Of a DNA stretch of 64,000 nt, positions 32,178 through 41,142 are shown piece after piece. The translations under genes were made by a program, and so were the position numbers. The number at the start of each line of letters is the position of its first letter. Position 1 is the stretch's first letter. Source of the DNA: a bacterium (GTDB taxonomy: Bacteria > Cyanobacteriota > Vampirovibrionia > Gastranaerophilales > Gastranaerophilaceae). The notes under the pieces were generated by a model, which saw only the letters and a program-made list of their open reading frames with translations, made no database searches and was not told the DNA's origin. The stretch is taken from NCBI GenBank assembly GCA_017396695.1, contig JAFQLC010000016.1, positions 1 to 64,000 of the forward strand. Reading direction: 5' to 3'.

Positions 32178-32903
32178 TTATTTTAAAAGGTCAAGAGTTT
32201 TGCACTCCTTCTTTGTTGCAACTTCATAACCCAACATTCCATATATTATTGGGAGTAATCTGCCTGCTTGAATTTTTTTTGCAAAAGGTACTTTTGCAAG
32301 AATTAAAACCGCAATAATATCATCAATATGAATAAAATAATCTTTCAGTTTCATTTCTCTATGTTCAGAGTTTTTATCTATTTTTTCGTTCAACCAATTA
32401 GAGCTTTCATGCGCTAGTGGCATACCTGCACCAACCCCCACGGCAATTGGGATTATCTGTCCTAATGTTTTGTTTGCAATTTTTGTTTTGCCCAACAACC
32501 CTAAAGTTGCAGCAGTCAAAGCTGTTGGAACACCAAAAGTTGCGTATGCGTGCACTGTTTCTTTGAGTTTTTCTTTATTTCCTGCAAGTGATTTATCTTT
32601 ATTTTTTGCAAAACCATAAATTAAACCTGCACCAATTGCGCTTGTTGCCATGGTGAACAAATCTTTAACATTGTAATCAATATCAAAGCTTTTCCAAACT
32701 TTGCCAATTTTTTTATGTAATGCCTCTCCCTTTAAATTGCCAATTTTAATTCCTTTATTTTTTTGGATTAAAGCTAAAGAAAGCGCAACGCCACTAGCCA
32801 CGGCAAGTGCCCCTATTGGTTCAAACTCTTTTTTTTCTTTATGTTTTGCTTGTGTATTTTTCTTTGGAATAAAATGCCCAAAAGATTGAATCTTCATGTT
32901 CAT
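32178..32903 (-). CDS. Tagged hypothetical membrane protein
   Basis: About 241 residues. The N-terminus has KIQSFGHFIPKKN, a form of the recurring SF-x tag, then a charged linker. Several glycine/alanine-rich hydrophobic segments follow (PIGALAVASGVALSLALI, LFTMATSAIGAGLIYGF, FGVPTALTAATLGLLG, IIPIAVGVGAGMPLA). The GVPTALTAATLG part resembles GIPLGLGIAGT in the protein at 11171. The start is unsure: ATG 32903 or 32897, neither with a Shine-Dalgarno. Function unknown. Confidence 0.7.
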   Translation of the reverse strand: MNMKIQSFGHFIPKKNTQAKHKEKKEFEPIGALAVASGVALSLALIQKNKGIKIGNLKGEALHKKIGKVWKSFDIDYNVKDLFTMATSAIGAGLIYGFAKNKDKSLAGNKEKLKETVHAYATFGVPTALTAATLGLLGKTKIANKTLGQIIPIAVGVGAGMPLAHESSNWLNEKIDKNSEHREMKLKDYFIHIDDIIAVLILAKVPFAKKIQAGRLLPIIYGMLGYEVATKKECKTLDLLK

Positions 32904-32961
32904 ATCAATATAAAACACTAAAAAAATTTTTGTGACCACTGGGTTTGTATGAAATTTTTAT

Positions 32962-33103
32962 ATTTTAGGGTTTTTTCTACACCTCTGGAACGGCTTCAAG
33001 TCGAATTATGTGCTATCCCGCGCATAATTCGACTCTCGCACACCTTGGGTCGAGTGTAGAAAATTCTCCTAAAATTGTCATTTTAGGGTTTTTTCTACAC
33101 TCT
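32962..33103. repeat. Nested inverted and direct repeat element upstream of serS
   Basis: A perfect 21-base direct repeat (32962-32982 and 33080-33100, core TTTTAGGG then CTACAC) brackets the element. An imperfect inverted copy lies at 33054-33075. It can pair with either repeat; with the second copy GAGTGTAGAAAA pairs with TTTTCTACACTC over 12 bp. In the centre AGTCGAATTATG (32999-33010) pairs with CATAATTCGACT (33022-33033), a 12-bp perfect stem extended to 15 bp around a 6-base loop. The centre is richer in GC than its surroundings. No reading frame. MITE-like or a structured RNA; I do not recognise it. Confidence 0.75.
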
Positions 33104-33107
33104 CCAT

Positions 33108-33135
33108 TTGCGAAAAAATATTATAGTCGTATAAT
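33108..33135 (+). promoter_or_regulatory. Candidate serS promoter
   Basis: TTGCGA (33108-33113) and TATAAT (33130-33135) are 16 bases apart. The start would give a leader of about 27 bases with AAGGT before the serS ATG. The promoter abuts the repeat element, whose hairpin ends 5 bases before the -35. Confidence 0.5.
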
Positions 33136-33168
33136 TGAAGAATATAGCGGAAAATTAAGGTAGAATTT

Positions 33169-34434
33169 ATGTTAGACATCAAATTGATAAGAGAAAATCC
33201 TGAAAAAATCAACGAACTTTTAAAAAGAAGAAACCCAGAACTTTCAATAGATAATGTTTTGAAGCTTGATGAAGAAAGAAGAAAAATCCAATTTGAAGCG
33301 GATCAATGCCGTGCTGAGAGAAAAAACATTTCTCAAAAAATTGGGATGATGAAAAAAAATGGCGAAAATACGGATGAAATTCAAGCCCAAACTCGTGCAC
33401 TAGGTGATAAAATTAAAGAGTTAGAAGAGCAAGAAATTGAACTAAATGAAAAACAAAAAGAAGCTCTTTTGTATATTCCAAACACACCAGATGAAACAAC
33501 ACCTGTTGGTTCAGATGAAAATTCTAACCCTGTAATTAAGGTTGTAGGAGAAGTTGTAAAACCAAACTTTGAACAAAAAGCGCACTGGGATATTGCCGCT
33601 GCAAAAGATATTGTGGATTTTGAAAGAGGAGTTAAACTTGCTCAATCAAGATTTTCACTATATAGAGGAAAAGGTGCAGCGCTAGAACGTGCTATTATTA
33701 ATTTCTACCTAGATTTACACACTCAAGAGCACGGCTATGAAGAAATTCTTCCTCCTGTTCTTGTAAATTCCGCTGCAATGCAAGGCACAGGGCAACTTCC
33801 AAAATTTAAAGAAGATATGTATAAATGCGTTGATGAAGATTTGTTCTTGATTCCAACTGCTGAAGTGCCTGTTACAAACATTTATGCAAATGAAATTCTA
33901 TCAGAAGATGAACTTCCAAAATATATGTGTGCATACACTCCTTGTTTTAGACGTGAAGCAGGAAGCGCTGGTAAAGACACAAGGGGCTTAATTCGCCAAC
34001 ATCAATTCAACAAGGTTGAAATGGTTAAATTAACTCATCCTGAAAAAAGTGCTGAAGAACACGAAAAACTTACTCAAAACGCAGAGAGAGCACTTGAGCT
34101 TTTGGGCTTGCCTTTCAGAAGAGTTGAGCTTTGCACAGGTGACATTGGTTTCAGCGCTAAAAAATGTTACGACATTGAAGTTTGGCTTCCTTCATATGAT
34201 AGCTATAAAGAAATTTCAAGTTGCTCGAATTTTGGCGACTACCAAGCAAGAAGAGCGAACATTAAATTCCGCTCAAAAGAAACAGGAAAACCTGAATTTG
34301 TGCACACTTTAAATGGTTCAGGGCTTGCTGTTGGAAGAACTTTTGCTGCTATTCTTGAAAACTTCCAAACAGAAAGTGGCGATGTTATAATTCCTGAAGT
34401 ACTTAGAAAATACACAGGCTTTGATAAAATTTAA
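33169..34434 (+). CDS. serS: Seryl-tRNA synthetase
   Basis: 421 residues of class II synthetase. An N-terminal coiled-coil arm (about 27-105) binds the long variable arm of tRNA(Ser). The catalytic domain follows with [38 protein letters not shown] (motif 2, shown here in part of its span), [17 protein letters not shown] and [11 protein letters not shown] (motif 3). Length and order are normal. It is followed 8 bases later by tmk. Confidence 0.98.
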
Positions 34435-40999: not shown

Positions 41000-41142
41000 G
41001 TTTAAAGGGCTGGCTGCGTTTTGTTTAATAAAACTTATTGTAAAGAAATGTAACAAAAAGTATATATTTTTGATTTAAAAAGGCAATATTTTAAAAACAA
41101 ATAACTTTATATAAGAGTAAGAGAGATTTAAGAGAGTTTAAA

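Follow-up and report, generated by a model that had tools for sequence, protein, structure and literature searches.

The window, a 64,000-nucleotide stretch of a Gastranaerophilaceae genome (GenBank assembly GCA_017396695.1, contig JAFQLC010000016.1), contains a cluster of repeats before the gene serS. On the other side of the cluster lies a gene of 253 amino acids that is divergent from serS (32178-32939, minus strand) and has no Pfam or NCBIfam match; by eye, a 319-aa open reading frame adjoining a copy of the same element in L004 (G008) resembles it. The original prediction described here a perfect 21-base direct repeat, an inverted copy that can pair with it and a central hairpin, all within a 142-base stretch richer in GC than its surroundings. 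We confirmed each of these features (Table 1), including the enrichment in GC, with a value of 0.41 in the repeat cluster and of 0.32 and 0.28 in the flanks of 200 bases. The true unit extends somewhat beyond the 142 bases, and erosion has affected the left outer arm and the two terminal motifs of the window copy. Judged from the alignment of copies, each 21-base direct repeat is the 3' arm of one of the two terminal hairpins. These arms are already alike across the family; the two homologous arms would have been made identical here by template switching or drift.

Table 1. Features of the repeat element beside serS (window positions) and of other loci mentioned in the text
Feature	Position	Strand	Remarks
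Whole element, degenerate full-length copy of the ~157-bp unit	32941-33104	+	Matches positions 1-157 of a profile of intact copies; same locus in G001
Left target-site duplication remnant, CACT	32937-32940	.	3 of 4 bases as in 33105-33108, in the window and G001; weak taken alone
Left terminal hairpin, eroded 5' arm	32941-32961	+	Aligned to intact copies, which read GAGTTTGCGG...
First 21-base direct repeat, 3' arm of left terminal hairpin	32962-32982	+	Perfect match to 33080-33100
Central hairpin, 15-bp stem	32999-33034	+	Arms 32999-33013 and 33020-33034, 93% complementary; conserved loop TATCCC at 33014-33019
Conserved single-stranded motif, CTCACACACCTnAGGTCGG in intact copies	33035-33051	+	From the alignment; also the search pattern for named contigs
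Right terminal hairpin	33052-33102	+	5' arm is the inverted copy, 3' arm (33080-33100) the second direct repeat; 33052-33063 pairs with 33091-33102, extended inward by 33064-33075/33080-33090
Right target-site duplication remnant, CATT	33105-33108	.	3 of 4 bases as in 32937-32940, in the window and G001; weak taken alone
serS promoter-like site TTGCGA-16-TATAAT, outside the element	33108-33135	+	10 of 12 consensus matches; 33105-33168 identical in G001
Gastranaerophilales RAYT loci	L293-L308, e.g. L306:1444-1986, L299:1453-1992, L296:1414-1986		
XerC/D-like recombinase and HipB/HipA locus	L007:840-2106, L008:844-2068		Also in G060, G280, G067 and G177

Comparison of copies at unrelated loci in relatives defined a three-hairpin unit of about 157 bp with the ends GAGnnTGCGGAAAAA...TTTTTCCGCAnnCTC. 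From left to right, the hairpin GAGTTTGCGGAAAAATTGACATTTTTCTCGCAAACTC comes first, followed by a central hairpin whose loop reads TATCCC, then by the motif CACACACCTnAGGTCGG and lastly by the right hairpin, which ends in TTTTTCCGCATCCTC. Intact copies carry GAGnnTGCGGAAAAA at both ends; these terminal inverted repeats are built into the self-complementary terminal hairpins and have been eroded in the window copy. The element is short, has no transposase gene and occurs in many dispersed copies, the complete ones ranging from 35 to 319 bp. Some of these are solo palindromes, some the standard unit, and others carry additional hairpins within their stems.

Searching 383 genomes of the same family (order Ca. 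Gastranaerophilales) turned up the unit in 84, patchily distributed over unrelated intergenic sites, and some copies in different genera were 97-99% identical. In a class-wide sample it was present in 40 of 289 genomes, where the two matches outside the order were short and weak. The pattern of the conserved motif matched at least 80 named contigs, mostly labelled Gastranaerophilales, Melainabacteria or uncultured bacterium, as well as one viral contig. Exact end motifs numbered up to 45 per genome (85 with a wider pattern), compared to 0-1 for a reversed-pattern control. The search for further copies had a divided outcome, in that no second copy occurs in the genome's own assembly (1.36 Mb, about 80% complete) but many occur in relatives. 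In G001, the one congener, an orthologous degenerate copy lies at the same place before serS, so the insertion predates the split of these two genomes. We found no description of the family in open-access papers, and it is apparently undescribed. An IMG/VR viral contig (L192:11239-11470) carries a 233-bp copy and is a possible vehicle for transfer. Direct pairs of copies in G153, G334 and G235 were considered as the boundaries of a composite element and rejected, their spacing and flanks being different; the G153 pair is set in near-identical host sequence on both sides, which points to a duplicated host segment.

Exact 4-bp target-site duplications flanked 42 of 93 independent insertions, while shuffles gave a mean of 2.0 and a maximum of 6, and in the same insertions duplications of 5-9 bp were in no excess beyond 3 cases. 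Inspection by eye showed a 3-bp rather than a 4-bp duplication at many G016-type copies. The duplicated sequence differs from site to site, and only 2 of 92 insertions were located inside long open reading frames, in sequence that is 78% coding. A clean empty site was seen neither at the serS locus nor among the other loci compared; the insertion locus of G025 aligns across the junction to G343, at a 71% identity with gaps that is too loose to prove an empty site. Target duplication, proposed as a check on mobility, was clear in the family and partial in the window copy, where three of the four bases agree. Terminal inverted repeats, 4-bp duplications at independent sites and a patchy multi-copy distribution bear out the earlier suggestion of a MITE-like mobile repeat.

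We suggest, with a probability of about 0.9, that this region holds a decaying copy, passed on by vertical descent, of a MITE-type element that is non-autonomous and belongs to Ca. Gastranaerophilales. Such an element would have been moved in trans by a DDE-type transposase making a 3-4-bp staggered cut. The single copy in the source genome and the imperfect duplication of the window copy count against this account, as do the lack of a clean empty site, the 3-bp duplications of the G016 type and the failure to find an autonomous copy. The window copy is probably without present function. The result adds an apparently undescribed MITE family to the Gastranaerophilales, gut-dwelling non-photosynthetic relatives of cyanobacteria that are known mainly from metagenomes.

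A covariance check showed that the stems covary strongly across homologues. Across 81 copies the sequence of the central stem varies freely; one position shows all four Watson-Crick pairs and others show three. The loop TATCCC is kept in 71 of the 81. Mispairs in this stem were G.T in 13 cases and A.C in 21 when one clade-specific position was set aside, and the lack of a G.T excess argues against selection on a one-strand RNA. It looks as if pairing has been maintained at the DNA level, by template switching or by a function of the DNA hairpin. The compensated changes would fit template switching and DNA-hairpin selection alike. We assume that the stems are held in register mainly by replication template switching, by recognition of the DNA hairpin or by both.

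The window and G001 bear directly on an improbable variant of this account, in which the element has a MITE origin but the copy or the family has been retained as a regulatory or insulating DNA hairpin between divergent promoters, with selection on its stems. Four of the 27 stem pairs changed between the two orthologues, all of them on both sides, and none was broken. The window copy also lies between two promoter-like sequences, a few bases from the -35 hexamers on both sides, and insertions elsewhere keep a fixed spacing from boxes resembling HLR1. However, the element has diverged slightly more (18%) than the 3.2-kb alignment as a whole (14%), whereas the 64 bases on the serS side are identical, and its left arm is degenerate. 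Moreover, replication template switching, documented (PMC8794818) as a source of compensated hairpin changes, would yield the same compensations without selection. The window/G001 pair is a compact case for telling selection from template switching in hairpin covariation.

As to the mobiliser of the MITE-type element, no transposase gene bounded by element ends was found with PF01609, PF00665 or PF13751 in assemblies that, as MAGs, collapse multi-copy elements. DDE_Tnp_1, rve and DDE_Tnp_1_6 were missing from most of the copy-rich genomes tested. Because no autonomous copy was found, the mobiliser and its DDE type are deduced solely from the duplications; beyond movement in trans with a short staggered cut, the mechanism is what we infer. 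A 1.7-kb candidate for an autonomous copy in G385 was rejected, as it holds ordinary open reading frames and no transposase. In G379 (L267:1668-2016 and L271:1369-1716) there is a decayed element of about 349 bp with the ends GAGGGTGTCCAAAAA/GAGGATGACTAAAAA and a remnant of DDE_Tnp_1_6. Its end GAGGATGACTAAAAA has 12 of 15 bases as in the MITE, a resemblance that makes the decayed element a possible remote relative of the parent that was not found. A similar end, GAGGGTGACCAAAAA, adjoins a transposase fragment in G295 (L268:1418-1677).

The palindromic ends in inverted orientation also recall REPINs, in which two inverted REP palindromes are mobilised by a REP-associated tyrosine transposase (RAYT). 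Of 16 element-bearing relatives tested, 10 have single-copy RAYT-like Y1 transposase genes, and three that were checked scored as RAYTs above the NCBIfam cut-off. The 2010 paper placed RAYTs in gammaproteobacteria (PMC2817692), a group outside of which the Gastranaerophilales loci lie. RAYTs have been reported to be flanked by their own REP palindromes (PMC2817692), and several of the RAYT genes here have their own REP-like palindromes (e.g. GTAGGTCGGGCTT..AGCCCGAC and TAGGGTGCAATTTATTGCACC). However, none of the 16 Y1 loci is flanked by the element, which occurs near just one of them, at a distance of 0.6 kb, leaving 15 of 16 without it. The copy-rich genome G074, which is 99% complete, has no Y1 match. 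The element further differs in its 4-bp target duplications and in having no GTAG-type head, its ends being GAGnn where the REP definition has GT(A/G)G (PMC2817692). A REPIN-type origin is very unlikely in our opinion, in spite of the mosaic structure and the intergenic location that the two kinds of element share. Elements of the IS200/IS605 type have hairpin ends as well, but that family is without terminal inverted repeats and makes no larger target duplications (PMC2817692).

It was also proposed that the repeats form a structured regulatory RNA with alternative pairings, that is, a serS leader, attenuator or riboswitch toggling between two folds. The fold is strong, as the 142-base stretch has a minimum free energy of -56.5 kcal/mol against a mean of -26.1 for dinucleotide shuffles (z -8.5), with no shuffle as good, and its location upstream of serS is conserved in G001. 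Both pairings can indeed be drawn, but the switch is lopsided: pairing of the inverted copy with the upstream repeat gives -46.7 kcal/mol, about 10 worse than with the downstream repeat, which makes a balanced switch unlikely. The sole sigma-70-like promoter facing serS begins four bases beyond the end of the element, which by this prediction sits outside the serS transcript, and the segment shared without change with G001 is likely the serS promoter and leader. No terminator-like site was detected. Conservation before serS, the other check that had been suggested, extended to the congener and no further, since serS in the other genera examined has unrelated upstream sequence. Homologues of the element, in turn, stand beside many unrelated genes in both orientations. 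The T-box covariance model had no match at E<=1 across 32400-33700, in agreement with the earlier remark that this is not a T-box, and known RNAs in general were rejected because Rfam returned no credible family match for the window copy or for one intact copy. Taken with the missing G.U excess in the stem, these results render the RNA reading highly improbable and remove a false lead for serS regulation.

Hardly credible is a site for a tyrosine recombinase (an attachment site, an invertible switch or a cassette boundary), for although in G002 and G046 the element has a short XerC/D-like recombinase gene on one side and hipBA (HipB/HipA toxin-antitoxin) on the other, no such gene is among the open reading frames listed beside the copies in the window, G001, G008, G030 and G025, the duplications vary by site, and the flanks that G002 and G046 share indicate one insertion spread by transfer. 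That this locus occurs in two different families suggests that it was transferred horizontally as a whole. An integron-like cassette was rejected along with the recombinase site; the MITE merely sits within the XerC/D-hipBA locus.

Correia elements of Neisseria and RUP of pneumococcus have TA targets. The MITE-type element of the Gastranaerophilales, in contrast, has 3-4-bp duplications of varied sequence, three hairpins and a conserved TATCCC loop. Correia elements and RUP, both named in PMC2817692, are likewise short and non-coding, with terminal inverted repeats, target duplication, many intergenic copies and strong secondary structure. They are related to IS630 (PMC2817692), whereas the parent of the element described here is not known.

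The insertions have a preferred neighbourhood. TGTAAA, with one mismatch at most, stands directly after the 4-bp duplication at 28 of 92 insertions (about 30%), compared to about 3 at most other offsets, and a second peak occurs 10 bases further. The combined motif TGTAAMnnWWTGTAAM (up to two mismatches) peaks at one offset, with 18 cases against at most 3 elsewhere. This motif is the reverse complement of the HLR1 consensus, the box of the cyanobacterial response regulator RpaB (PMC11633204); it belongs to the target environment and not to the element, and is a putative regulator site only. It was enriched over the control in all five genomes checked (19/4, 48/4, 51/3, 15/1 and 9/2), including the element-free G007. 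The counts of 19 and 4 come from the source genome, where one site is at window positions 41039-41054. A good box is lacking at the window copy, whose CATT is followed by TGCGAA. We considered the boxes as promoter -35 elements beside the insertions and rejected this, because no TATAAT peak was seen at the right distance.

We tentatively propose, as a rather doubtful extension of the MITE account, that a regulator bound at HLR1-like boxes is recognised by the transposase or recruits it, and that insertion needs the folded DNA hairpin with its TATCCC loop. The targeting is likely the sole part of this work to surprise specialists. If true, regulator-guided targeting would place the element in a class of MITEs beyond plain deletion derivatives of insertion sequences. 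The fixed 4-bp spacing makes two questions testable, namely whether an RpaB-type regulon has been kept in the non-photosynthetic Melainabacteria and whether bacterial MITEs can be steered to regulator-bound sites. In relatives, several of the HLR1-like boxes precede putative sigma-28 sites with sequences like TAAAGTTT-N-GCCGATAA, the flagellar consensus. A tandem array of gcacccatcctarccttccctcacaagggaaggaacgattaa adjoins a solo element end in G130 (L108:2080-2680).
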